Assembly: GCA_018673255.1 (NCBI GenBank)
Contig: JABHDC010000142.1
Location: 1-64,000, forward strand
Reading direction: 5' to 3'
DNA: 64,000 nucleotides
Source of the DNA: Gemmatimonadota bacterium
GTDB lineage: Bacteria > Latescibacterota > UBA2968 > UBA8231
Shown here one piece after another: positions 1,782 to 60,349 of this stretch. The translations under genes were made by a program, and so were the position numbers. Under the pieces are notes generated by a model. It searched no databases. It was not told the origin of the DNA and worked only from the letters and a program-made list of their open reading frames with translations. The number at the start of each line of letters is the position of its first letter. Positions within the stretch are counted from its first letter, which is position 1.

Positions 1782-4097
1782 ATGAGACATATCGACCTGA
1801 ATGGGCAGTGGAAACTGCAATACGGGAAGCAGGAGATTCCAGCCATGGAGTTGGACTCTCCGCGGATTCCCGAGGACTTCACGATGGTTGATGCCCTTGT
1901 CCCGGGAAATGTTGAGCTGGACCTGATGCGGGCGGGGCATCTGCCCGCGCAGTTGGAGCGCGGCAACAATATCTATGATCTGCGCCCCCTCGAGAGTTAC
2001 CAGTGGTGGTACTCTCGAAGTTTCACAATCGCTGCACAGGATCGGGGTAGCGTCTTCGAGCTGGTCCTTGAGGGCGTCGACACCCTGGCCACGATCTGGC
2101 TGAATGGGCAACGCATTGCCACTCTCCAGAACATGCTCATCCCGCATCGCGTCTTGATGGATGACCTGCTGCAGGCCGGCGAGAATCATCTTGTCATCGG
2201 AATCGATTCAGTGATTCAAGCCGCCGCGAAACGACCGGTTGCTCCCGGTGAGTGGGCGATGGAAAACAACTGGGAGTCGCTGAATATCCGGAAGGCCGCC
2301 CACGGCTTCGGCTGGGATATCATGCCGCGAGTGATCTCCGCTGGCCTCTGGCGTGACGTCTACATCGAGGAGAAAGATCCGACCCGGTTCAGCAATGTCT
2401 ATCTGACCACGACCTCTGTGAATGTCACTGACAAGAAAGCCGGCTTGCTCGTTCGATGGGACCTGCAGGCAACACAGTACCCGATGGATGGTTGGACCGT
2501 CTGTCTCTCGGTGAAAGATCCAGCCACGGGAGGCAGCGTCTTCGAGAAATGCGTGCCCGTCCTGTCCTCGCATGGCCATGCCGCCGGCGAAGTCGAAGGC
2601 ATTGAGCTGTGGTGGCCGCGTGGATACGGGCGTCCTGCCCTCTACGACATCAGCCTCGAGGCTCGTGATGAAACCGGGGCCAGTTATGCCCGGTGGATGG
2701 GGCGCCATGGATTCCGAGTTGCGCGGCTGGAGAAGACCGCCACGACCAATGCCGCCGGCGATGGGAAGTTCGAGTTCATGGTGAATGGGCAGAGGGTCTT
2801 CGTGAAGGGTACCAACTGGGTACCCCTGGATGCCCTGCACAGTCGTGACACGCAGCACCTGGACGCGGCCCTCGACATGCTCGTTGACCTGAACTGCAAC
2901 ATGGTCCGCTGCTGGGGGGGCAATGTCTACGAGGGAGAGGACTTCTTCTCGAGGTGCGACGAGGAAGGCATCATGGTCTGGCAGGACTTCGCCTTCGGCT
3001 GTGCCCTCTATCCGCAGACGCCGAGTTTCCATGAGAAGGTCCAGCGCGAAGCGGAAACGATCATTCCCATGCTGCGCAACCATCCGTCCCTGGTTCTGTG
3101 GGCGGGCAACAACGAGATCGACGCCTTCTACACCTTCGCCAAACCAGAGTGCGATCCGAACGAAGACGACCGCATCTCGCGCGAGGTCCTGGCCGGGGCC
3201 TGCCGACGCCTCGATCCTTCACGGGACTACCTGCCCAGCTCTCCCTACTTCGCCCCCGAACTCTGGGCCATGGGGGCACCCCACGAGGCTCGGCCGGAGG
3301 ATCATCTGTGGGGCCCGCGAGACGATTTCAAGGGATCCTTCTACACATCCTCGAATGCCCACTTTGTCAGCGAGGCCGGGTACCATGGGTGCCCGAATCG
3401 CACTTCCCTCGAACGCATGATGAATCCGGACAAGCTCTGGCCATGGCAAGACAACGAGGAATGGCTAACCCACGCGGTGCGCCCGATGGAAGAAGGCACG
3501 GCCTACAACTTCCGCATCACCCTGATGGCCAATCAGATCAAGATCCTCTTCGGAACCGTCCCGGAAGAGCTGGACGATTTCGTCTTCGCCTCGCAGGTGT
3601 CACAGGCTGAAGCCCTCAAGTTCTTCATCGAACGCTTCCGCATGGATTCAGAGCGGCGCTCGGGGATCCTCTGGTGGAACCTTCGTGACGGGTGGCCGCA
3701 GATCTCCGATGCGGTCGTCGACTACTATGGGGCCCGCAAGCGCGCCTATGCCGTCATCAAGCGCATTCAGCAGGATGTCTGCGTCATGATCGGCGAAGCA
3801 GTGGATGACCTGCACCCGGTGGTCGCGGTAAACGACTCGCAGAAGCCGGTGACGATACGAGCCTCCGTGTGCCGCGATGGCGAGTGCCTCCTGGAGAAGG
3901 AGCGTCAGTTGCCAGCCAATGGATCAGTCAATCTGGGCCGGGTACCCGCAGCGACAGAGCCGGCATTCTACGAGATCAGCTGGCAGGGCGAGGTAAGTGG
4001 AGAGAACCACTATCTGGCTGGACCGCGTCCCTTCGACGTTGCCACCTGCCGCGACGGGTATGCGGCGATTTCCCGAGAGGTGGGTTCGGCGCGGTAG
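1782..4097 (+). CDS. Glycoside hydrolase family 2, beta-mannosidase-like
   Basis: A 771-residue GH2 enzyme: N-terminal jelly-roll sugar-binding domain (about residues 1-180), an immunoglobulin-like domain (about 185-310), a TIM barrel (about 310-620) and a C-terminal beta domain. The barrel shows LWAGNNEID, giving E445 as acid/base, and VSEAGYHG, giving E531 as nucleophile, both as in GH2 beta-mannosidases. There is no signal peptide, so it probably acts in the cytoplasm on imported mannosides or related beta-glycosides. ATG at 1782 is preferred over TTG at 1773; the ribosome binding site is weak. It leads a same-strand group with the secreted propeller, GH32 and enolase-superfamily genes. 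Exact substrate is inference. Confidence 0.88.
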   Translation: MRHIDLNGQWKLQYGKQEIPAMELDSPRIPEDFTMVDALVPGNVELDLMRAGHLPAQLERGNNIYDLRPLESYQWWYSRSFTIAAQDRGSVFELVLEGVDTLATIWLNGQRIATLQNMLIPHRVLMDDLLQAGENHLVIGIDSVIQAAAKRPVAPGEWAMENNWESLNIRKAAHGFGWDIMPRVISAGLWRDVYIEEKDPTRFSNVYLTTTSVNVTDKKAGLLVRWDLQATQYPMDGWTVCLSVKDPATGGSVFEKCVPVLSSHGHAAGEVEGIELWWPRGYGRPALYDISLEARDETGASYARWMGRHGFRVARLEKTATTNAAGDGKFEFMVNGQRVFVKGTNWVPLDALHSRDTQHLDAALDMLVDLNCNMVRCWGGNVYEGEDFFSRCDEEGIMVWQDFAFGCALYPQTPSFHEKVQREAETIIPMLRNHPSLVLWAGNNEIDAFYTFAKPECDPNEDDRISREVLAGACRRLDPSRDYLPSSPYFAPELWAMGAPHEARPEDHLWGPRDDFKGSFYTSSNAHFVSEAGYHGCPNRTSLERMMNPDKLWPWQDNEEWLTHAVRPMEEGTAYNFRITLMANQIKILFGTVPEELDDFVFASQVSQAEALKFFIERFRMDSERRSGILWWNLRDGWPQISDAVVDYYGARKRAYAVIKRIQQDVCVMIGEAVDDLHPVVAVNDSQKPVTIRASVCRDGECLLEKERQLPANGSVNLGRVPAATEPAFYEISWQGEVSGENHYLAGPRPFDVATCRDGYAAISREVGSAR

Positions 4098-21902: not shown

Positions 21903-23015
21903 CTAGACCCTGGGGAAATATCCCAGGTCACTCCCGGCGATGGCATGAAGGCGTGTCATACACCGGCAGAGCGCCTCGTAGCCCACGTCTGGCTGCAGGG
22001 CGTGGTCGAACATGGGGAAGCACCCCCCCTGCTGCAGCAGTGCCGGCCACTTGGCCAGCTCTGCTTCGATCATGTCGTCATTCCCGGTATTGACCACCTC
22101 TTTCTCAATCCCCCCGGCCAGGATCATGTCGGGATGGTTCGCACGGTACTCCTGCAAGTCATTGCCACATACCTGCTCCAGAGGCCAGGTGCCATTCACC
22201 CCGAGTTCATCTGACAGATTGAGATACTCGCTGACCTGGCCGTCGGTGTCGACGATCACCAGCGGCACCCCTGCGTTTCGGCTCACCTCCACGACTCGCC
22301 TGTAGTACGGAGCGCAGAACTCTCGAAAGCTGTCCGGGCTGATCATCATGCCGTGGTTGTAACAGAAATCCTCCCACAGCATGACGATCTCCGGGCGCAG
22401 CCGGTCGATGAGGGGGGCCGTGTATAGATCAAACTGCTCAAGTTTGTACTGCATCATCTCATGAATGAGGTCCGGCTGGTCGTAGAGTGCGACCAGGGCC
22501 GCTTCCGGTCCCATCCAGCTTCTGAGATAACCCCAGGTGCCACCTCCGTGGACCGCGAGGGGCCGGCGTCTGTCACGGTAACTGTCTGCCAGGGCATCCA
22601 GCTGTTCGGTGGCTCGCGTCGTGGGCGTGATCAGGTCTCGGTAGACAATCCAGGACTCTCTGTCACGGACATCGTAGCGCTGGAAATCCGGCATCGAGTA
22701 CTTCCTGAGGTTGTCTATGTGGGTCCTGGTGATCGATCCGGTCTCAGCTTCCTCGATCTCGTATTCGCCCTCGATTCTACGGACCTTGCGGATGCCTGGC
22801 ACTCCGACGCCGATGCCCTCGATGCAATCGAAGGCCTGCTGCCCAAAGAACAGACACCAGGTGTCGAGATCGCGCACCTGCTCCGGCAGGCCCTGGGCGT
22901 GCAAGCTGTCGAGACCGGCTTGGTGTATATAACCCAATCCCCACACATTCATCAGTGGCCAGACATCGGGCTCCTCAAAACGAAGGACGGCGAGAAATCT
23001 CTCCAGTTGATTCAT
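21903..23015 (-). CDS. Uroporphyrinogen decarboxylase-fold protein, probable methyltransferase-like
   Basis: A 370-residue URO-D-fold barrel protein. The opening MNQLERFLAVLRFEEPDVWP and the late segments VIVDTDGQVSEYLN and DMILAGGIEKEVV match the MtaA/CmuA-type branch rather than HemE. The HxCG zinc motif of corrinoid methyltransferases is replaced by VDTDG, so demethylation through zinc-thiolate chemistry is not evident. It may act on a sugar acid, methoxylated compound or other unknown substrate. AGGAGA precedes the ATG. Three more paralogs are in this window, none beside a corrinoid protein. Confidence 0.82.
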   Translation of the reverse strand: MNQLERFLAVLRFEEPDVWPLMNVWGLGYIHQAGLDSLHAQGLPEQVRDLDTWCLFFGQQAFDCIEGIGVGVPGIRKVRRIEGEYEIEEAETGSITRTHIDNLRKYSMPDFQRYDVRDRESWIVYRDLITPTTRATEQLDALADSYRDRRRPLAVHGGGTWGYLRSWMGPEAALVALYDQPDLIHEMMQYKLEQFDLYTAPLIDRLRPEIVMLWEDFCYNHGMMISPDSFREFCAPYYRRVVEVSRNAGVPLVIVDTDGQVSEYLNLSDELGVNGTWPLEQVCGNDLQEYRANHPDMILAGGIEKEVVNTGNDDMIEAELAKWPALLQQGGCFPMFDHALQPDVGYEALCRCMTRLHAIAGSDLGYFPRV

Positions 23016-27878: not shown

Positions 27879-28906
27879 CCTGCTCTGACACGATCCAGGT
27901 CATCGCTACAACGATCTCGGGATCCGTCAGTGACTGGGCCAAAGTCGAGAAGATCGTCCCTCTCTTCCAGCAACACGGTCACAATGAGGTCGAGTTGCAG
28001 GTCGTGGACAGTCACATTCAGGCACGGGAGCGTAGCCGCGATCTGGTGCGTGCCGGGTGTCGACGTGTGATCTCGGCTGGGGGCTCAGGCACATTCAACA
28101 GCGTTCTGACCGGTTGCATCGATTCGGGCATTCCCCTGTCAGAGACGACCCTCGGATTCCTGCGCAAGGGTTCGGCCGATCTCATCGGCAAGGTGCTGCG
28201 AATGCCCGACCACATCGACGACGCCATTGCCATCTTCGCCACCTCGCTGGAAGGTGAGCACACTATCGGTTGTGATGTCATTCGCGTGACCAGTGAGACC
28301 GGCGACATCCCTGCGCGTCACTTTGTCGGCTACAGCGGCGCGGAGATCTTCGGCCGCGTGCCCCACTTCACCGAAAATCGCCTCACCAAATACTACAAGG
28401 GCATTCTGAGCCAGCTCTTCGGTGACCTGGGCCCCTTCTTTGTCGGTGCCTCACTGTCTGCCCTGGAACGGACCATCCACTTGCCCTTCTCAAGGCGTCG
28501 AAAGTGGTCGTTCTCCGTCGACGGCCAGCAGACCCCACCTCGACTCTGCAGCTCAATCATCATCGTCAATGGTGACCTGGGTCCGAATCTGCCCTTCGCC
28601 CGTGGGGTTCCGCTGGGCTCGGGAGATTTCCATGTCTTCGTGCTCCTGGACCGGGGCGCACGGCGTCTCCCCGGACAGTTCCAGCACGCCTTCGATGGCA
28701 CGATCCTCGATGATCCGGACCGCTGGGGCATGGAGCATCTGCGCGTCGAGGCGTCGCTCATTCTGTCGCCCGATGATGGGGCACCCTTCCCGATCAATGT
28801 CGATGGCTCGACGATGATGTGCCGCGGATCAGCGACATTCCGGATCGTGGACAGGATCCGGCTGATGGCGCATCCGGAGGCGAGCGAACAGTCGTCAATC
28901 GCTTGA
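27875..28906 (+). CDS. Diacylglycerol/lipid-kinase-like protein with altered GGDGT motif
   Basis: A 343-residue protein with the two-domain DAG-kinase/YegS layout: N-terminal alpha/beta domain with AGGSGTFNSVLTG (residues 69-73 GGSGT) and C-terminal beta-sandwich. The family motif is GGDGT, so the conserved aspartate is a serine here (S71), and the following LGFLRKGSADLIGK replaces the usual PLGTGNDLAR. It may be an inactive or repurposed lipid kinase. It overlaps the acyltransferase-kinase gene by four bases (ATGA), and the three genes form one operon. Confidence 0.75.
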   Translation: MTCSDTIQVIATTISGSVSDWAKVEKIVPLFQQHGHNEVELQVVDSHIQARERSRDLVRAGCRRVISAGGSGTFNSVLTGCIDSGIPLSETTLGFLRKGSADLIGKVLRMPDHIDDAIAIFATSLEGEHTIGCDVIRVTSETGDIPARHFVGYSGAEIFGRVPHFTENRLTKYYKGILSQLFGDLGPFFVGASLSALERTIHLPFSRRRKWSFSVDGQQTPPRLCSSIIIVNGDLGPNLPFARGVPLGSGDFHVFVLLDRGARRLPGQFQHAFDGTILDDPDRWGMEHLRVEASLILSPDDGAPFPINVDGSTMMCRGSATFRIVDRIRLMAHPEASEQSSIA

Positions 28907-28947
28907 GTCGTTGGCATCATCGGCCACAGTTGTGGTTGTTTGTCTGC

Positions 28948-30039
28948 ATGGATTCACGTGAACGTACATTTCTGACACTCGACCTCGAAGAGCCCGATCG
29001 CGTCCCGCGCGACATGTGGCTCTCAAGTGGTTTCGAGCGCAAGCTGAGCGCGGAGCGGGGTGAGACCAAGGCAACCTGGCTCGACACCTACGATATCGAT
29101 CTGCGCTACATCGACGGGCCGGCCTTCATCGGGCCCCCTCTCGCTACATACGCCGATGGTGGTGACGAGGACATCTGGGGCGTGCGCCGCAGACCGGTTC
29201 ACGTTGCCACGGAGGGTGGTGCCGAAGACTATCACGAGGTCGCCGCCTCTCCCCTGGCTACGGCTACCACAGTCGACGAGATCCAGGCGTACGACCACTG
29301 GCCATCGGCCGACTGGTTCGACTACTCACCGATCGAGGCACAATGCCAGGCAATCCGTGATTCGGGACGCGTCGCCGTCTTCATGGGTGACCGGCTCAAC
29401 CGGCTGGCACAGCTCAAACCGGCTATGTACCTGCGCGGTCTCGAGCAGATCTTCATGGACATGGTGGAGTCGCCCGAGATCGCTCACGCCATCTTCGGCC
29501 GAATCCAGTCGTTCTATCTTGAATACGCTCAGCGGATTTTCGACGCCGCCGCCGGCAAACTCGATATCGTGTTGACCGGTGATGACTTCGGCTCGCAGAA
29601 TGGTCCCCTCGTATCACCGACCATGTGGACCGAGTATCTACAGCAGGGATTCGGCGCCTATGCTGGCCTGGCCCGCAGCTATGGATGTTGTGTCATGCAT
29701 CACACCTGCGGATCCGTGCGCCCTCTGATTCCGCTGATGATCGATTCGGGTCTGGATGTCCTGCAATCCCTGCAGCCGGAAGCGGCTGACATGTCGCCAG
29801 CAGAATTGAAGACCGACTTCGGTGATCGACTCGCCTTCCACGGCGGCATCTCGATCCAGCAGACATTGCCATTCGGTACGCCTGAAGACGTGCGCAACGA
29901 GGTGCGGCAGCGGATCGCCGATCTGGCGTCGGGTGGCGGCTACATCATCAGCACATCCCACAACATCCAGGCAGATACGTCGATCGAGAATGCGACCGCC
30001 CTACTTCGGGCCTACGACGAATTCGGAAATTATCGATGA
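28948..30039 (+). CDS. Uroporphyrinogen decarboxylase-fold protein with HxCG motif
   Basis: A 363-residue URO-D-fold protein. MHHTCGSVRPLIP carries the HxCG zinc/corrinoid-methyltransferase motif of the MtaA branch, and LAFHGGISIQQTLPFG with the late ISTSHNIQADT segment are family hallmarks. It is the only one of the four paralogs here with this motif intact. The start is ATG 28948; no strong ribosome binding site precedes it. Its stop overlaps the start of the next paralog by ATGA, so the two are made together and may form a complex. Confidence 0.85.
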   Translation: MDSRERTFLTLDLEEPDRVPRDMWLSSGFERKLSAERGETKATWLDTYDIDLRYIDGPAFIGPPLATYADGGDEDIWGVRRRPVHVATEGGAEDYHEVAASPLATATTVDEIQAYDHWPSADWFDYSPIEAQCQAIRDSGRVAVFMGDRLNRLAQLKPAMYLRGLEQIFMDMVESPEIAHAIFGRIQSFYLEYAQRIFDAAAGKLDIVLTGDDFGSQNGPLVSPTMWTEYLQQGFGAYAGLARSYGCCVMHHTCGSVRPLIPLMIDSGLDVLQSLQPEAADMSPAELKTDFGDRLAFHGGISIQQTLPFGTPEDVRNEVRQRIADLASGGGYIISTSHNIQADTSIENATALLRAYDEFGNYR

Positions 30040-31163
30040 AACCACGGGATCGGGTCATCGCCGCTCTGCAGCACCGTGAGGCGGATCGTGTGCCCACGGG
30101 TGACAACCAGGTCGATCCCCGTCTTGTCGAGCACATCCTCGGGCGGCCGACCCTGGCCAGCACTGGTCGTCAGGAACTGGAAGCTCTGTGGAATGGCGAG
30201 CGTGAGCGGGTCGTCGCCGACTACTGCGCCGACCACGTCGAGTTACCCCTGGCGCTGGAATGGGACTACGTGCGCGTGCCTGTCGTGCCGGCCAATGTCG
30301 AGCATCCGCGTCTCGAGACGACGGGGCCCTTTTCCTGGATCGACGCACAAGGGTTCGAGGTCACGATGAATGCCGACGCCGGCAATATCGCCGTGCGAAG
30401 CCAGTTTCCGGACCTCTCCATCGATGATCTCCCAGATCCCGGCGCTCCCGTCGAAATCGACTCGTCCGAACTGGACGCGATCCGCCATGTGGTGGATCAG
30501 ATCGGCGACAGCTGTTTCATCGTCGCGCGCTCAAGCGTCGATGGCACCTTTCCATGGGGCGGCACCGTCGGCATGGACGAGTTCCTCGTGCGCATGATCA
30601 CGGACCCCGACTTCGTGCACAAGGCCGTGGATGTGTATGTGTCGCGGTCCCTGGCCTACATCGACGCCTTCTTCGATGCCGGCGTGGATGCCGTGATGAC
30701 AACGGATGATTACTCCGACAATCGGGGCCCCATCATGGGTGTGGATCGGTATCGGGAATTCATCCTGCCCGGTCTCGAGCGGCAGTGTGAGGCGATCCAC
30801 GCACGAGGCGGCTACTTCATCAAGCACACCGATGGCAATACCTGGCCAATCCTCGACAGCTTCGTCGAGATCGGCATCGATGGGTGGCACGGCATCCAAC
30901 CTGACATCGGCATGGATCTCAAACAGCTCAAGCAGCGCTATGGCGGGCAGCTCTGCTTCTTCGGCGGCGTCAATTGTCATTCGCTGATTGAGGGACCTGC
31001 GAGCAAGGTGCGCGAAGAAGTGCGCTATGCGATCGAGCATGCCGCGCCGGGCGGTGGGTTGGTTGTGGCCACGAGCAATGTCGTGCAACCGGGCACGACG
31101 GCTCAGAACTATGAAGCCATGCGGCAGGCCGTGCGTGACTACGGAGCGTATCCGCAGAGCTGA
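30036..31163 (+). CDS. Uroporphyrinogen decarboxylase-fold protein, second of a pair
   Basis: A 375-residue URO-D-fold protein (MKPRDRVIAALQHREADRVP opening; LCFFGGVNCHSLIEG; VATSNVVQPGT). The HxCG position reads KHTDGN, so metal binding differs from its operon partner. DDYSDNRGPIMG matches the DDxGxQ-type loop near the barrel mouth. Start and stop of the pair overlap. It ends immediately before the stop codon of the convergent transporter. Confidence 0.84.
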   Translation: MKPRDRVIAALQHREADRVPTGDNQVDPRLVEHILGRPTLASTGRQELEALWNGERERVVADYCADHVELPLALEWDYVRVPVVPANVEHPRLETTGPFSWIDAQGFEVTMNADAGNIAVRSQFPDLSIDDLPDPGAPVEIDSSELDAIRHVVDQIGDSCFIVARSSVDGTFPWGGTVGMDEFLVRMITDPDFVHKAVDVYVSRSLAYIDAFFDAGVDAVMTTDDYSDNRGPIMGVDRYREFILPGLERQCEAIHARGGYFIKHTDGNTWPILDSFVEIGIDGWHGIQPDIGMDLKQLKQRYGGQLCFFGGVNCHSLIEGPASKVREEVRYAIEHAAPGGGLVVATSNVVQPGTTAQNYEAMRQAVRDYGAYPQS

Positions 31164-42920: not shown

Positions 42921-42953
42921 AAGAGGGTCCACGGCGGCGCTGCGGACCCTCTT
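42921..42953 (+). terminator. Hairpin after the large unknown gene
   Basis: AAGAGGGTCC (42921-42930) pairs perfectly with GGACCCTCTT (42944-42953) around a 13-base GC-rich loop, 18 bp after the stop codon and before a convergent gene. There is no long T-run after it, so termination efficiency is uncertain. Confidence 0.65.
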
Positions 42954-42997: not shown

Positions 42998-44926
42998 TTA
43001 TCTCAACAACAGAATCTTGTGTTGCCGGACCCCCTCCTCGGTCTGCAGACGGCAGAAATACGTGCCACTGGCAAGACCTTCTCCACGATCATCCGTACCA
43101 TCCCAGTGCAACAGATAGGACCCGGCCCTCCTGCGCCCGCTGGCGAGGGTGGCAACCCGCTGCCCGATCATATCGTAGAGCGTCAAATTCACGTCTGACT
43201 CTTGAGGGACCGAAAAATGGATCACGGTGCTGCTGTTGAAGGGATTCGGATAACTGCCCAGCAGGACAGTATAGGTCGGCTGTGATGCCGTCTTGGTTTC
43301 CATCACGACCGTAGGCGCAGAGGGCAGTTGCGGTGCCACCAGGCGCAGATCGTCGAGGTGGAATGTGCCATTCATGGCGCCATTGATCAGCAGTGTGGTC
43401 AGTGGTTCGCCCGCGGGGACGAAATCGCTGGTGGGAATCTCCACAATCTGCCATTCCTGCTTTGCCAGATCGACCAGTTCGCGGGCAAGCAGATCGACGG
43501 TCTGACCACCCTTCGAGGTCACCCGAAACCGGCCGCGACTTGGCAACACGGCATCACCTGGGTGGAAGGCAAATCGCAGTGTGTAACCATGGGTCCGGAT
43601 CGAATCTGCGGACTCGAAGGTCAGTCCCCAGTTACCTGATCTGCTGGTGACTGTGAACGACATGGCGCTGGCGCCCTGGCCGACGACGTCCGTCTGAGCA
43701 AAGGTGCTGGTTTCGAAGCCGAATTCCGTCACACTCCAGAATGAATCCAGATCGTCAGCGACGATATCAATCGGTTCGGTCGGCCACACATCGAGTGGGA
43801 GATTCGTGAGGACGAAGGACTCCTCCTCCTCGTTGCGAACCCGAACTGCGGTCGGAAAGTGCCCTGTGGACACGTAGTCCATCATGACGCTGCCTCGATA
43901 GTGTCCCGGACCGACGGGTGTCAGCGAGATGCTGGAATTCCCGTCGGCATTCACCTCCCAATCGATGGCTGTCTGCAGGCCCGACTCGTCCAGTGGACGC
44001 TCAAGTTGCAGATCCATCGACACCTCGGTCGGATGGCCGACCCCGACAGCTGCCGGTGTCAGCGTGGCCGATCGAATTCGCGGGTATTGCAAGGCTGCGT
44101 CGGCATCGCCCGCACAACGCAGCCCGGCGGCTCCGGCTCGGCTCGTCGGCACGCCAGAAGCTCGGACCGTTGCGCGCATGAGTAACTGGCCACTCACACT
44201 GCTGCCACCACGAGCCAGTCTTTCCTGGCCCGTTTCCGGTCCCGTGGGATTGAATTGGGGACCGGCGGTGTAGTAACCCTCGCCATACCAGTCCGACACA
44301 TATTCCCAGACGTTGCCACCCATGTCGTACAGACCGTGTGCAGACCGGCCTTCAGGAAAACTGCCGACAGGGGACATCTTGTCGAACCCGTCCGCATCGG
44401 AGTCTGCATTTGCCTTGTCGACATCGTAGGCATCACCCCATGGGAACAGGCGACCATCTGATCCCCTGGCAGCCATCTCCCATTCTGCCTCGGTCGGCAA
44501 TCGCATCCCCGCCCAGCTGCAGTAGTCGTCAGCGTCGTGCCAGCTGATGCCCGTGGCAGGATAGTTATCCAGTCCGGGTCTCGGATCCACACCGGCGACG
44601 GCAGCGTAAGCATTCCATTGCGCCACCGTCACCTCGTATTGACCCATGTAGTAGCTGTCGAGGAACACGTCGTGAGCCGACTCTTCGAGGATGCCGTGAT
44701 AGACCTCGCTCTCCGCTCCATCCATCTCCCACAGGCCCTGCACTTGCTCTTCAGTGAGGCCCATCGTGAAACGGCCCCCCGGTATGTGGACCAGCGTGTG
44801 GTCATCGCCCGCCGGTGATGAGATCGTGATCGTTTCCTGTCCCTTCGTCGGGGCCGCCCCGGACATCACGGTAGTCACCACGATCATCATCGTGACGATC
44901 TGCCCTCTTGTTCGCCTCAGCCGCAT
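42998..44926 (-). CDS. Secreted SUMF1-domain protein with T9SS-type C-terminal tail
   Basis: A 642-residue secreted protein. A signal peptide (VTMMIVVTTVMSGAAPTKG) is followed by a SUMF1/formylglycine-generating-enzyme-like domain (about residues 40-270; MGQYEVTVAQWNAY, ISWHDADDYCSWAG, LPTEAEWEMAARG, YDMGGNVWEYVSDW). The cysteines of true FGE are not evident, so it is probably a binding or structural version. Two beta domains follow, the second resembling a carbohydrate-binding module, and the end (YPNPFNSSTVIHFSVP, LYDMIGQRVATL, GTYFCRLQ) is a FlgD-like/T9SS type A sorting domain. It overlaps the STAS gene by 10 bp and is probably under sigma-54 control. Confidence 0.87.
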   Translation of the reverse strand: MRLRRTRGQIVTMMIVVTTVMSGAAPTKGQETITISSPAGDDHTLVHIPGGRFTMGLTEEQVQGLWEMDGAESEVYHGILEESAHDVFLDSYYMGQYEVTVAQWNAYAAVAGVDPRPGLDNYPATGISWHDADDYCSWAGMRLPTEAEWEMAARGSDGRLFPWGDAYDVDKANADSDADGFDKMSPVGSFPEGRSAHGLYDMGGNVWEYVSDWYGEGYYTAGPQFNPTGPETGQERLARGGSSVSGQLLMRATVRASGVPTSRAGAAGLRCAGDADAALQYPRIRSATLTPAAVGVGHPTEVSMDLQLERPLDESGLQTAIDWEVNADGNSSISLTPVGPGHYRGSVMMDYVSTGHFPTAVRVRNEEEESFVLTNLPLDVWPTEPIDIVADDLDSFWSVTEFGFETSTFAQTDVVGQGASAMSFTVTSRSGNWGLTFESADSIRTHGYTLRFAFHPGDAVLPSRGRFRVTSKGGQTVDLLARELVDLAKQEWQIVEIPTSDFVPAGEPLTTLLINGAMNGTFHLDDLRLVAPQLPSAPTVVMETKTASQPTYTVLLGSYPNPFNSSTVIHFSVPQESDVNLTLYDMIGQRVATLASGRRRAGSYLLHWDGTDDRGEGLASGTYFCRLQTEEGVRQHKILLLR

Positions 44927-55736: not shown

Positions 55737-57527
55737 CTACGACTCGGTCTCTGCCAGCAACTGACGCGCTCGGGTGACCAGCTCGTCGTCGGCCCCCAGA
55801 CGAGAGTTCACGACATCTGTCACGGTAGACATCTCGTACAGGGCCCCGAGTGCTTCGGCGAAGTCTTGCCGGTGACGCGCCAGGGATTCCTCGAATCCTT
55901 CCAGCCGCCGACGCACAAGCCCCATGCGGTAATCCGGCATGCTGCCCCCCAGGCGACCGTGATACATGCGCAGCGTGTCCAGCAACTCCTGACGAAGTGC
56001 ATCGTGCGTGGTCACCGCCGCAGCTGACCGGAACAGAGCGAAGCGCTCCAGTTGATCGCTGACCCTGACACCCTGGTGTGGCAGGTGTTCGGCCAGACCA
56101 CTGCGCAGATATGCCCCATATTCAACCTCCAGGTCCGTGCCGAAGAGGGCACGCGACGCACTGCCACAGGATTCGCTCAAACCACGTTCCTTCCCCGACC
56201 ACATGGATTCGGCCGCATAGAGCATGGTGAACCAGCACGTTTCCGGCGGCTCCGCGGGCGGATCGGCTGAGGCGATGCGCGTCCAGCCCGTGGCAACCAC
56301 ACCCTCCAGGTCGTTCTCCACTGCCGTCTTGGTCCAGGCGGCGATATTCAGCGCCCGTTCCGCCAGGGGCGGCACATTCTGTATCCAGCTCGGGCCACAG
56401 CCGGAGAAGCCACTGGCGCCCCACACCTTCATGCCCCGGGCCTGGTAGCGAGGCAGCAGGGGGAAGGTGTTCCCCGAACCACCGTATCCGTAAGCCCAGT
56501 ACATCAGCACGGCGTCTTTGCCCAACGCCCACGTGCTGTCGAGTTCATCCTCGCTCAGGTTGCCGTGCAGATTCCGCAGGATGTCTTCCCACAGGATGGG
56601 TACACGCCCGGCGGCGGTGATCACATCGATGCATTGCTGCACACGGTGGATGTAGGAGGACGCTTTGCTGTGCTGACTGCAGACGGGGCACTCCCCCAGG
56701 TTGCCCGTCTCATCGGCCCCGATATGGAAGTAGTTGTGACCTGGAAAACACGCCATGAGCTCTTCGGCCATGGCACGCCACAGAGCCATGCCCTCCTCAT
56801 TGCGAGGGCAATACTGGAACGGATGGCCATTCTCACGCAGGTGGGCGTAGCGTGGGTGCTTCAGCATGTAGTCGACGTGACCCAGGCACTGCAATTTGGG
56901 GATCACCTCGATGCCGATGGCCTCACAGAAACGACCCAATTCCTTGAACTGCGCCGGCGTGTACGCACCAGGCACACCGACCTGCGGCGTCCCGCTGTAA
57001 TCGAGCTTGTCCTCGACCTCCAGAAGGATCGTGTTGATACGATGACGCGACAGCAGATGGCAGGTCTCCAGCAGGCGCTCGAATCGTGGCTGATATCCCT
57101 TCAGATCCAGATGGATCCCCCGCCGACGGATGGCCGGCCAGTCACGCACTTCTCCGGCCGGGACCGACTCGCCATTGCGAGTGAGCAGTTGCACCACGCT
57201 CTGCACACCATACCACAGACCCACCCGGCCATTGGCAACGACCTCGATGCGATCATCTGACACCCGCAGCACGTAGGCCTCTCCTGGCCCTGCCACCGAC
57301 TCTGGCACGCGCACCTCGAGTTCGGGATCAGCCTCCAGGGCTCCGACACCGAATACGGCGCGAAACGCCGAGCCCTGGGACACCTGCAATTCCACCCCGC
57401 CCATGTCGTGGCGCAGCCTGTCCATGGCGAGTTCCGGCAGGCCGCTGATCTGTCCCCGCCGGATGGCTTTCACCTGACACCGGCCCTCGGCGTAGTTCAC
57501 TTCCTGGGGTTGGGGTAGAAAATTCAT
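55737..57527 (-). CDS. Glycoside hydrolase family 20 beta-N-acetylhexosaminidase
   Basis: A 596-residue GH20 enzyme: N-terminal beta/alpha domain (about residues 1-120) and barrel with RRRGIHLDLKGY, VIPKLQCLGHVDYM and the catalytic Asp-Glu pair D272-E273 in HIGADETGNLG. It removes terminal N-acetylglucosamine or N-acetylgalactosamine by the substrate-assisted mechanism. No signal peptide, so it acts on imported chito- or glycan oligosaccharides. ATG 57527 follows AGGA. It is divergent from the DAHP synthase leader. Confidence 0.93.
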   Translation of the reverse strand: MNFLPQPQEVNYAEGRCQVKAIRRGQISGLPELAMDRLRHDMGGVELQVSQGSAFRAVFGVGALEADPELEVRVPESVAGPGEAYVLRVSDDRIEVVANGRVGLWYGVQSVVQLLTRNGESVPAGEVRDWPAIRRRGIHLDLKGYQPRFERLLETCHLLSRHRINTILLEVEDKLDYSGTPQVGVPGAYTPAQFKELGRFCEAIGIEVIPKLQCLGHVDYMLKHPRYAHLRENGHPFQYCPRNEEGMALWRAMAEELMACFPGHNYFHIGADETGNLGECPVCSQHSKASSYIHRVQQCIDVITAAGRVPILWEDILRNLHGNLSEDELDSTWALGKDAVLMYWAYGYGGSGNTFPLLPRYQARGMKVWGASGFSGCGPSWIQNVPPLAERALNIAAWTKTAVENDLEGVVATGWTRIASADPPAEPPETCWFTMLYAAESMWSGKERGLSESCGSASRALFGTDLEVEYGAYLRSGLAEHLPHQGVRVSDQLERFALFRSAAAVTTHDALRQELLDTLRMYHGRLGGSMPDYRMGLVRRRLEGFEESLARHRQDFAEALGALYEMSTVTDVVNSRLGADDELVTRARQLLAETES

Positions 57528-57550
57528 GTCATTTCCTGTCTGATGTCTGG

Positions 57551-57580
57551 TTGACGAAACCAATTCCATCGGCCTACCTT
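57551..57580 (+). promoter_or_regulatory. Candidate sigma-70 promoter of the DAHP synthase leader
   Basis: TTGACG (57551-57556) and TACCTT (57575-57580) are spaced 18 bp apart, placing transcription start near 57587, about 57 bp before the leader peptide. The -35 box is a 5/6 match; the -10 box is weak. Confidence 0.4.
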
Positions 57581-57643
57581 GCAACCGCGCCAAGATAAGT
57601 CAGCCAGCAAACCAGACCAGCAACGGACATCGATACACAGATC

Positions 57644-57727
57644 ATGCAGATCGCTACGACCCGCTACTACTTTACAGACTCCTATTTTGTCGACCCACAT
57701 GCGGGAGTCGAAGGGATCGGATCGTAG
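57644..57727 (+). CDS. Leader peptide, Tyr/Phe-rich, of the DAHP synthase attenuator
   Basis: A 27-codon open frame, ATG at 57644 to TAG at 57725-57727, whose middle reads RYYFTDSYFVD: three Tyr and two Phe in eight residues, the end products that feed back on the pathway encoded by the next gene. Upstream no strong ribosome binding site is seen. Its Asp-Ser codons (57677-57682) form segment 1 and its later codons (57703-57710) segment 2 of the attenuator, so ribosome stalling at the Tyr/Phe codons would cover segment 1 and free segment 2. It is too short for routine gene calling. Confidence 0.75.
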   Translation: MQIATTRYYFTDSYFVDPHAGVEGIGS

Positions 57728-57768
57728 CTGCACAGTAGACTACACGACACGAAAAAGCCCCCGACTCC
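57677..57768 (+). promoter_or_regulatory. Anti-terminator and anti-antiterminator pairing segments
   Basis: Segment 1 GACTCC (57677-57682) pairs with GGAGTC (57704-57709); segment 2 GGAGTCG (57704-57710) can instead pair with segment 3 CGACTCC (57762-57768), which is the 5' arm of the terminator. The pairings 1:2 plus 3:4, or 2:3, are mutually exclusive, as in the trp and phe leader attenuators. Confidence 0.72.
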
Positions 57769-57790
57769 TGACGGAGCCGGGGGCTTTTTT
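57757..57790 (+). terminator. Intrinsic terminator of the DAHP synthase attenuator
   Basis: GCCCCCGACTCC (57757-57768) pairs with GGAGCCGGGGGC (57773-57784), one mismatch, four-base loop TGAC, followed by six T (57785-57790). It lies 37 bp before the DAHP synthase ATG, on the coding strand of that gene and ahead of it, so it acts on the leader transcript. A run of A before the stem could also let it terminate leftward transcription. Confidence 0.9.
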
Positions 57791-57827
57791 CATTTGCCCC
57801 TGAAGTGTTACCCGCGAGGAAGTCACC

Positions 57828-58898
57828 ATGTTGCAGACCCAGGATGTACACGTGACCGAGACGTCGCCACTGATATCACCCCGCCAGCTCAAGGACGATC
57901 TGGCCATGTCCGATGCGGCCAGTCGCACAGTGATCCGGAGTCGTGCCCGCATTGGCCGCATCCTTCGTGGTGAGGATGACAGACTGCTGGTGATCAGCGG
58001 GCCATGCTCGATCCATGACCCGCAGGCGGCACTCGAATACGCGACTCGCCTCCAAGCGTTGCGCGAGGAACTGGACGATCGGCTCTGCCTGGTCATGCGA
58101 GTCTATTTCGAGAAGCCCCGTACGACGGTGGGCTGGAAGGGACTGATCAATGACCCTCGTCTGGACGGCTCGGATGACATGAGCGAGGGACTTCGCGTTG
58201 CTCGCAAGCTCCTCCTCGAGATCACCGAAATGGGCCTGCCCGTGGCAACCGAAGCCCTGGATCCGATCACGCCGCAATACGTGTCGGATCTGATCAGTTG
58301 GTCGGCCATCGGCGCACGTACGACTGAATCGCAGACACATCGCGAGTTGGCCAGCGGCCTGTCCATGCCGGTAGGCTTCAAGAATTCCACCTTCGGCGAC
58401 CTGCAGGTCGCAGTGGATGCCATCGAATCAAGCCGCAGTGGACACAGCTTCCTCGGCATCGACACCGAAGGCCGCACATCGGTGATTCGCACCGCCGGCA
58501 ATCCACACGGTCACCTGGTCATGCGAGGCGGTGCCAATGGCCCCAACTATCACGCTGCAGATCTGGCGGCGGCGGCAGCTTTGCTGCGAGCCGGGACGGA
58601 TAAGCGCCCGGCCATCGTCGTGGACTGCAGTCACGCCAACTCCGGCAAGAAGCACAGCCATCAGGAGGCGGTGTGGGACAGCGTGATCCAGCAGCGCGTC
58701 GATGGCAACGACACCATCGTCGGATTGATGGTGGAGAGCCATCTGGAAGAAGGCAACCAGAAGATCGGCGACCAGGGCCTGACGGGACTGCAATACGGTG
58801 TCTCCGTCACCGACGAGTGTGTCGGCTGGGAGACCACCCAGCGCATGTTGCATGGTGCCTATGACGCCCTGGGTCCTGCGGAGGCCAAAGCCGCCTGA
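57828..58898 (+). CDS. 3-deoxy-7-phosphoheptulonate (DAHP) synthase, class I alpha
   Basis: A 356-residue enzyme joining PEP and erythrose 4-phosphate, the first step of aromatic amino acid synthesis. It aligns along its length with AroF/AroG/AroH: ISGPCSIHDPQAALEYA, RVYFEKPRTTVGWKGLINDP, SWSAIGARTTESQTHRELAS, DCSHANSGKKH and MVESHLEEGNQ. The metal ligands (Cys in GPCSIHD, His in DCSHAN, Glu in MVESH, Asp in TDEC) are present. Which feedback inhibitor acts on it cannot be read; the leader suggests Tyr and Phe control transcription. GAGGAAG precedes the ATG. No other aro gene is adjacent. Confidence 0.95.
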   Translation: MLQTQDVHVTETSPLISPRQLKDDLAMSDAASRTVIRSRARIGRILRGEDDRLLVISGPCSIHDPQAALEYATRLQALREELDDRLCLVMRVYFEKPRTTVGWKGLINDPRLDGSDDMSEGLRVARKLLLEITEMGLPVATEALDPITPQYVSDLISWSAIGARTTESQTHRELASGLSMPVGFKNSTFGDLQVAVDAIESSRSGHSFLGIDTEGRTSVIRTAGNPHGHLVMRGGANGPNYHAADLAAAAALLRAGTDKRPAIVVDCSHANSGKKHSHQEAVWDSVIQQRVDGNDTIVGLMVESHLEEGNQKIGDQGLTGLQYGVSVTDECVGWETTQRMLHGAYDALGPAEAKAA

Positions 58899-59104
58899 TT
58901 CTTCCGCGTGCCCTGCCCACACCAGACTGACGATACTGCCACCACAGCATCGATCCGAGGACATCGCTCTGATGCTGAGGTAGTTACCCGGGAGGCCAAT
59001 CCCCATCACACCCGGAGCAGATCCACCACTGTGTCTCCGTATCCGTGCACGGCGACGGCCCGAGGATCCTTGACGCGAGGCCGCTGAACGTCGGTTATCG
59101 AAGG

Positions 59105-60349
59105 ATGGTGCGTGACGTCCTTGCAGGCTTCGATCTGCGCGAATACAACTCGAGTGTACAGCGATTCTTTCTGTTCGCGATCCCGATCTTTTCGAGCCTG
59201 GCGCTGTATTCTCTGCTCTACAATCTGTATCTGGTGCGACTGAGCTATCAGGAGGATTTCATCGGCCACCTGGCCGGTCTGTTTCCCCTGGCTTCGGGTC
59301 TGGTCGCCATTCCTGCCGGTATTCTGAGCGATCGATTCGGTCGCAAGCCGCTGCTGATTCTCGCCTCTGTGATTCTCGGTATTTCACAACTGGGGCTGTG
59401 CTGGGTCACCGTCGATGCGTATCTGCTCGCCTTCTCATTCCTGGGCGGGATCGGTGGCGCCTTCGTCTTCGTGAACTTCATCCCCTTTCTGGCCGAGAAT
59501 GCTGACGCGAGTCGCCGGAGTCAGGCGATCGCCATCTGGATGTCGATTCAGGTGGTAACGCGCATGCTCGTCAGTCTCGTCGGTGGCGCACTTCCCGGCG
59601 CGATGGCCTGGCTGACCGGTCTGTCCACGGACATGCCCGAGCCCTTCAGATATGCTCTGATGTTGGGGGCTGGTCTGTCGCTGGTGGCGTTGATCCCCAT
59701 CGTGGGTGTCCCGTCGAAAGAAGCGGCACTCACTTCGGATGAGGAGGCGTCCGACGAGTCACCGAAATCGGCATCGACGCCCTGGAAACACCTCATCCTT
59801 TTTGGTTCGATCAGCGCCTGCCGGGGGCTGACGATGGGGCTCTCTTTTCCCTTTCTCAATGTGTTCTTTGAATCCGGCTATTCCGCCTCCACAGTGGCCA
59901 TCGGGACGATCTTCTTCGCCAGCATGGCCATCGGTCTGCCAAGCACGATCTGCGCACCGGCCCTGGGCCGTCGTTTCGGACCGGGACGTACCATCATTCC
60001 CCTGCGGCTGATCGGCGCCGTGGCGCTGGGCATGATGGGCTGGACGGGGAACTACGAGATGGCGATTGCACTGTTCCTGGTCAGCAGTGTCATGGAGGCG
60101 ATCACCGTGCCCACGGAGATGACCTTCGCCACCCATACACTGCCCCGAGCCTATTGGGCACGGATGCAGAGTCTGCGTGTCGCCGGCTTCCAGATTCTGT
60201 CCGGACTGGGGAGCTTCTGGGCTGGTGGCCTGATCATCGAATACGGCTACGATGTGCCCTTTGCGCTGGCCGGTGTGGCCCGCGTGGGAAGCAGCCTGCT
60301 CTTCCTGGCGGCCTTCGGATTCACCCGCCGCAGTGGTGGCACCGGCTAG
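59105..60349 (+). CDS. Major facilitator superfamily transporter
   Basis: About 414 residues with 12 hydrophobic segments. The loop 2-3 motif GILSDRFGRKPLLI is the MFS signature, and the second half begins after a charged loop (TSDEEASDESPKSAST). Substrate unknown. Start uncertain: ATG 59105 begins just before the soluble N-terminus, while the frame opens at 59045 without a ribosome binding site. Its stop codon overlaps the convergent methyltransferase gene by four bases. Confidence 0.88.
   Translation: MVRDVLAGFDLREYNSSVQRFFLFAIPIFSSLALYSLLYNLYLVRLSYQEDFIGHLAGLFPLASGLVAIPAGILSDRFGRKPLLILASVILGISQLGLCWVTVDAYLLAFSFLGGIGGAFVFVNFIPFLAENADASRRSQAIAIWMSIQVVTRMLVSLVGGALPGAMAWLTGLSTDMPEPFRYALMLGAGLSLVALIPIVGVPSKEAALTSDEEASDESPKSASTPWKHLILFGSISACRGLTMGLSFPFLNVFFESGYSASTVAIGTIFFASMAIGLPSTICAPALGRRFGPGRTIIPLRLIGAVALGMMGWTGNYEMAIALFLVSSVMEAITVPTEMTFATHTLPRAYWARMQSLRVAGFQILSGLGSFWAGGLIIEYGYDVPFALAGVARVGSSLLFLAAFGFTRRSGGTG

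Follow-up and report, generated by a model that had tools for sequence, protein, structure and literature searches.

The 300-nt gap ahead of a class I DAHP synthase gene described here very probably harbors a transcription attenuator in which a translating ribosome senses the supply of charged tRNA-Tyr and tRNA-Phe, as judged from the order and content of its sequence elements. The gap separates a GH20-like glycosidase gene on the minus strand from the DAHP synthase gene on the plus strand, within a stretch of 64,000 nucleotides that was analyzed as a whole (hereafter, the window; Table 1). A first-pass annotation had proposed a Tyr/Phe leader-peptide attenuator at this position. The proposal is well supported, entirely by computation: the anatomy of the element, its target gene and its aromatic codons are mutually consistent with such a device, the feature recurs at distant DAHP synthase loci far above background, and it occurs throughout one Chloroflexi family with covariation in the terminator.

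Locus organization

The putatively regulated gene serves the synthesis of the amino acids that the leader would sense, its product being assigned to the class I DAHP synthases by both family models and solved relatives. Among solved structures, those of the Tyr-sensitive AroF rank first (6agl, the best match, and 6agm), and entries for the Phe-sensitive AroG come after them; this likeness to AroF fits the Tyr-rich leader and does not prove feedback specificity. Relatives of the DAHP synthase at 65-66% are titled Latescibacteria, Handelsmanbacteria and Entotheonellaceae, and further relatives reach 72-76%. A consensus scan of positions 57300-59200 recovered no sigma-70-like promoter.

Table 1. 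Features of the DAHP synthase locus, in window coordinates.
Feature	Position	Strand	Basis or remark
Divergent neighbour, GH20-like glycosidase	55737..57527	-	in-frame ATG 57527; ORF listed from TTG 57593
Possible promoter, TTGACG-18-TACCTT	57551..57580	+	by eye only
Leader peptide frame MQIATTRYYFTDSYFVDPHAGVEGIGS, 27 codons, ATG 57644 to TAG 57725-57727	57644..57727	+	open frame in gap
Regulatory codon cluster CGC TAC TAC TTT ACA GAC TCC TAT TTT (R Y Y F T D S Y F)	57662..57688	+	
Segment 1, GACTCCT, can pair with 57703-57709	57677..57683	+	MFE fold; GACTCC recurs in terminator arm
Segment 2, CGGGAGTCG, antiterminator 5' strand, within leader frame	57702..57710	+	folding
Intrinsic terminator, one stem mismatch, U tract 57785-57790	57753..57790	+	terminator-like on minus strand too
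Segment 3, CGACTCCTG, antiterminator 3' strand, overlapping terminator 5' arm	57762..57770	+	folding
GAGGA, Shine-Dalgarno-like site of DAHP synthase	57816..57820	+	sequence
Class I DAHP synthase (aroFGH type), 356 aa	57828..58898	+	PRK12755.1, 515.6 bits; TIGR00034, 481.3 bits

Leader frame and terminator

The leader frame holds at the coordinates first assigned to it, including the stretch RYYFTDSYF. From Y8 to F15, five of the eight residues are Tyr or Phe (3 Tyr, 2 Phe). Mini-ORFs with five F/Y in nine residues are rare by chance, arising in 1 of 4000 dinucleotide shuffles of 57527-57827, and two mini-ORFs of 8-45 codons reach this density in the real 64 kb, both strands considered. The ribosome-binding site predicted at the leader start is weak, with an anti-SD duplex of -3.2 kcal/mol versus -5.9 kcal/mol for the 20 nt upstream of the DAHP synthase start; sites weaker than -3.5 also precede 12 of 24 other leaders.

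The terminator begins 25 nt past the leader stop codon and ends 37 nt before the DAHP synthase gene. Its core, 57757-57768 with 57773-57784, had been annotated correctly, together with the six T that follow: 11 of the 12 positions pair, the exception being one A.C mismatch, and A/U pairs extend the stem, for a folding energy of -29.2 kcal/mol. The terminator score is 29.8. Among 4000 dinucleotide shuffles of 57527-57827, none produced a score of at least 29, 13 produced any strict terminator at all, and none combined a mini-ORF of five F/Y in nine with a terminator in position. Also, a detector for a leader (four F/Y/W in nine) followed by a terminator fires once in the whole window, at this locus.

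The hairpin is terminator-like on both strands and its neighbours are divergent, features that would suit a constitutive bidirectional terminator insulating the two genes, with the promoter of DAHP synthase located within 57790-57827 and the aromatic frame present by chance. The promoter scan lends this explanation some room, given that it gave no site upstream of the leader either. However, merely 37 nt are left for a promoter beyond the hairpin, where the scan found none, and both the Tyr/Phe frame and the recurrence of the feature at other DAHP synthase genes would be left unexplained. Such an insulator is considered very unlikely. A strict terminator that ends 37 nt before a gene in a divergent gap, if the promoter lies upstream, makes sense mainly as a conditional stop, which is the role it would have in an attenuator.

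Alternative RNA structures

The antiterminator core annotated earlier, GGAGTCG at 57704-57710 with CGACTCC at 57762-57768 (7 bp), was recovered and lengthened by RNAfold to 9 bp (57702-57710 with 57762-57770, including one G.U pair). Pairing of this quality between segment 2 and the terminator arm was equalled by 22 of 1000 shuffles. Segment 1 sits on the codons D-S, between YYF and YF. The competing 1:2 hairpin that had been proposed (57677-57682 with 57704-57709) can form and appears in the MFE fold, but it is not above chance, as 559 of 4000 shuffles equalled it; the helix alone proves nothing.

The 157 nt from 57644 to 57800 fold at -59.6 kcal/mol (z = -5.36), a stability matched by none of 200 shuffles. 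A leader this structured could also be a riboswitch or T-box sensing the amino acid or the tRNA directly, without translation. Against this, no Rfam family, T-box included, reached its gathering score anywhere in the window, and such a device would have no need of a reading frame in which Tyr/Phe codons cluster. Both readings were dropped for want of an Rfam match at gathering score, and this is the least probable of the explanations considered in this work.

The RNA was also folded with a ribosome positioned at the five aromatic codons in turn, on the assumption that it covers the RNA to 10-16 nt past the codon in its A site. As long as segment 4 is unmade, the best fold contains the 57702-57710 with 57762-57770 helix for a ribosome at any of these codons, with energies from -27.5 to -30.8 kcal/mol (-27.5 to -29.4 in a first series, -28.8 and -30.8 in a second with the 3' end three bases longer). 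In these folds the antiterminator encloses an inner, interrupted stem. With the ribosome at the stop codon the antiterminator is absent, the free RNA preceding segment 4 is unstructured, and synthesis of segment 4 then lets the terminator form. When segment 4 is present, the terminator is found in the best fold in every case of the first series, so that the switch must be kinetic. The trp and phe attenuators are likewise kinetic switches.

Proposed mechanism

Under the attenuator model, in which promoter position, leader translation, stalling and readthrough are steps that we infer, RNA polymerase would start upstream of 57644 and a ribosome would trail it on the leader frame. With Tyr and Phe in ample supply, the ribosome would cross segment 2 and reach the stop codon at 57725, the terminator at 57753-57790 would fold, and transcription would stop short of DAHP synthase. 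Should Tyr or Phe run short, the ribosome would be expected to stall at Y8-Y9-F10 or Y14-F15 and mask segment 1, leaving 57702-57710 free to pair with 57762-57770. With the antiterminator paired, the terminator would not form in time and DAHP synthase would be transcribed.

Occurrence upstream of other DAHP synthase genes

For the occurrence of the feature elsewhere, an alignment of 26 DAHP synthases was used to scan named genomes, which yielded at least 80 loci at 53-61% identity, and further loci were taken from other genome collections and viral contigs. Searches for close relatives that started from G002, G003, G001, G008, G007 and G014 reached no more than 60% over the full length, apart from a single fragment at 62%; the plasmid and viral collections contained distant DAHP synthases only. 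A locus was scored positive when a mini-ORF with at least four (or at least five) F/Y/W in nine residues was followed by a strict terminator within 400 nt upstream of the gene.

The first count comprised 162 upstream regions, redundant ones included, and preceded any search aimed at positives. The feature was detected in 10 of them under the 4-of-9 setting and in 9 under the 5-of-9 setting. Across all 171 records (2.63 Mb, both strands), the stricter setting gave 9 DAHP synthase loci versus 3 matches elsewhere, and the looser one 10 versus 15. One of the three non-DAHP matches at 5-of-9 is MTRHSLFFVFFFFFPRWGGDWSCE, located on the minus strand of the Lonsdalea iberica locus L064 (about 3475-3550 of the reversed locus), which we take to be a pheL-type leader and thus an unplanned positive control.

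The second count comprised 187 loci after removal of redundancy, each at 44% identity or more and with no less than 200 nt of upstream sequence; 25 of them are from viral-contig records. Searches centred on positives are included, so that its rate is raised by choice: 26 loci were positive at 4-of-9 and 161 lacked the feature by the detector, while at 5-of-9 there were 24 positive loci against 3 matches in the other 2.69 Mb. Leaving out the loci brought solely by two family searches, the figures become 16 of 177 (4-of-9) and 14 of 177 (5-of-9). Any strict terminator upstream was found at 40 of the 187 loci.

The enrichment is strongest for Phe and Tyr. When leader-placed mini-ORFs were scored for every residue pair at five of nine, F+Y ranked first among all 190 pairs (21 of 187 loci), followed by G+Y with 13. 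F+W+Y was sixth among the 1140 residue triples, and the five above it all consist of F and Y plus another residue. The 24 clusters tabulated, out of 26 positive rows (L058 is absent from the table), contain 65 Tyr, 65 Phe and 13 Trp. Upstream of the DAHP synthase gene at L018, the cluster is YRYYYCYYY, in which seven of the nine residues are Tyr and Phe is absent; by its codons, this leader is perhaps a Tyr-only sensor.

Spacing from the leader stop to the terminator is 23-31 nt in 18 of 25 loci, as in the window, and 35-62 nt in the other seven; L167, judged weak, was excluded from this list and from the shuffle test of the antiterminator. In folds of the window and 16 other loci, a helix between the frame end and the terminator arm can be read in most. 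In a test restricted to contiguous helices, 10 of 25 loci beat 95% of their shuffles and 15 did not, the weakest being L181 (0.92), L184 (0.72), L038 (0.33) and L183 (0.23). A Fisher combination of these results was set aside because the loci are related.

Distribution among lineages and covariation

In the family of G008 (L058/L175, titled Dehalococcoidia), all eight genomes encode the DAHP synthase and all eight carry the leader and the terminator. The leaders themselves vary, with clusters such as RYFGYYFYRT, SFYFSTYAYFS, TYGYFGYFFYF and YGYFGYLFTS. This variation bears on whether the ribosome could instead be halted by the nascent chain together with a small ligand (an intermediate of the pathway, or Tyr or Phe in free form) and not by lack of charged tRNA. 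Terminator and antiterminator would operate alike with such an arrest peptide, and the data contain no direct discriminator. Arrest peptides normally keep specific residues, however, and the loci share aromatic codons and not peptide sequence, the cluster ranging within this one family from SFYFSTYAYF to YGYFGYFFYF. Arrest by the peptide is likewise considered very unlikely, about as much so as insulation by the hairpin, and sensing through the aromatic codons is the reading retained.

Covariation was assessed on an alignment of nine rows, formed by the G008 family and L038 (titled Chloroflexi). In the terminator, 100% of the cells are paired and 4 of 10 pairs have changed on both sides (a value reached by 11 of 500 shuffles). 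Its covariation score was reached by none of 500 shuffles; in its count of distinct pair types it does not stand out (285 of 500). The antiterminator has 85.2% of its cells paired, as opposed to 14-64% when slid, a comparison in which both structures are favoured by having been derived from the same aligned sequences. Two of its pairs have changed on both sides; its covariation score was reached by 106 of 500 shuffles and its paired percentage by 115. These values are consistent with conservation of the antiterminator among the nine rows and do not prove it.

Seven genomes represent the family of G071: the feature is present at all five near full-length genes, and of the other two genomes one has only a contig-end fragment and one only a remote match. 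Among 148 genomes in the phylum of G007 (L051, titled Desulfobacteraceae), 4 of 14 near full-length loci are positive (L051/L200, L197, L205 and L206) and 10 are not. The class of G008, with 119 genomes, has 17 near full-length loci (L171-L187), of which 4 are positive. The feature thus occurs in patches across the higher ranks but without exception at the near full-length loci of the two families examined.

Two further patterns were observed in the class of G008. At L179, a Tyr-rich frame, MNKNYYTYYYFRLAESF, containing YYTYYYF, lies upstream of DAHP synthase with no terminator by the detector, and may be a missed or a different switch. At L181, L183 and L184, the leader includes a Trp codon (GFWGYF in two, YGWGCEGYF in the third), the terminator follows the stop at 56-62 nt and the antiterminator is not evident; by sequence, these could perhaps form a second aromatic-leader subtype.

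On balance, attenuation through Tyr/Phe codons appears to be a widespread and under-described control of class I DAHP synthase in little-studied bacteria, a generalization held with somewhat more confidence than doubt. Besides the lineage of the window, those in which it would have arisen or been kept are Chloroflexi (Dehalococcoidia), genomes of Desulfobacterota type and the phylum to which MAG RI_301 belongs; across them the leaders share aromatic residues and not sequence, with a common geometry (a cluster, an antiterminator strand near the frame end and a terminator about 25 nt after the stop). If so, DAHP synthase would be under direct translational sensing in several distant lineages, making attenuation a common alternative outside the well-known leader-peptide groups. 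Regulation in uncultured bacteria would also become predictable from sequence alone, and the repeated attainment of one RNA geometry would become testable. It is this breadth of lineages, rather than the single locus of the window, that deserves follow-up.

Relation to known attenuators

The enzymes at the entry of the aromatic pathway are, in E. coli, a textbook case of control by protein repressors. The enterobacterial pheL-pheA and trpL-trpE systems, in turn, operate by a four-segment logic with clustered regulatory codons and a terminator before the first structural gene. The window shares the clustering of regulatory codons and the terminator before a structural gene, together with a proposed four-segment logic; its target is the common first step of the pathway and theirs is a branch enzyme. 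An aroR leader of the C. glutamicum aroF gene was reportedly described by Neshat et al. in 2014.

The C. glutamicum leader contains Phe-Tyr-Phe and ribosome stalling under Phe limitation raises aroF expression (PMC11802643, PMC4046766), Tyr availability being given as without effect (PMC11802643). In the window, as would be expected of an attenuator of the aroR-aroF type, an aromatic leader and a terminator precede a DAHP synthase gene. Compared by description, they differ in lineage and in codons, Phe-Tyr-Phe in aroR versus three Tyr and two Phe in the window cluster. In Acholeplasma, uORFC-13-1 upstream of aroF has been proposed as a Phe attenuator with an apparent terminator (PMC8632094), and so resembles the window in its upstream frame with Phe coding, its apparent terminator and its target. 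Peculiar to uORFC-13-1 are a frame rich in U that encodes one Phe or more, support for a further substructure of paired bases, and 24 representatives, with a range given as only Acholeplasma and environmental sequences of unknown organisms (PMC8632094). For E. coli aroF, too, the same source mentions an earlier hypothesis of attenuation (PMC8632094).

The attenuation circuit for DAHP synthase put forward by the first-pass annotation is supported but is not the first of its kind, since aroR-aroF and the proposed uORFC-13-1 precede it. The putative switch of the window would be a further case of a known attenuation type, DAHP synthase attenuators being already known (Corynebacterium) or proposed (Acholeplasma). 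As to other bacteria, E. coli aroF-tyrA is under TyrR and aroH under TrpR (PMC5343134), and among the elements of a Shewanella screen one at aroF is entered, on the strength of the literature, as 'Attenuator sensing tyr-tRNA' (PMC2659441). A 2010 survey states that demonstrated leader peptide systems had until then been confined to Proteobacteria and Actinobacteria, and adds Firmicutes (PMC2965389). Searches of the open-licence literature, in which Chloroflexi were queried by name and Desulfobacterota and Latescibacteria were not, found no DAHP synthase leader attenuators in other lineages, which is weak evidence of absence.

Other features of the window

The minus-strand terminators of score at least 18 in the window are the one at 42921-42953 and the reverse of 57753-57790, and no others. 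The protein encoded at 42998-44926 on the minus strand matches EgtB, SenA and PvdO models and ends in a T9SS sorting domain, a hint that the host belongs to the FCB group. CydA has a relative at 88%. Three uroporphyrinogen-decarboxylase-family genes, two of them in tandem, occur at 21903-23015 (minus strand) and 28819-31163 (plus strand).
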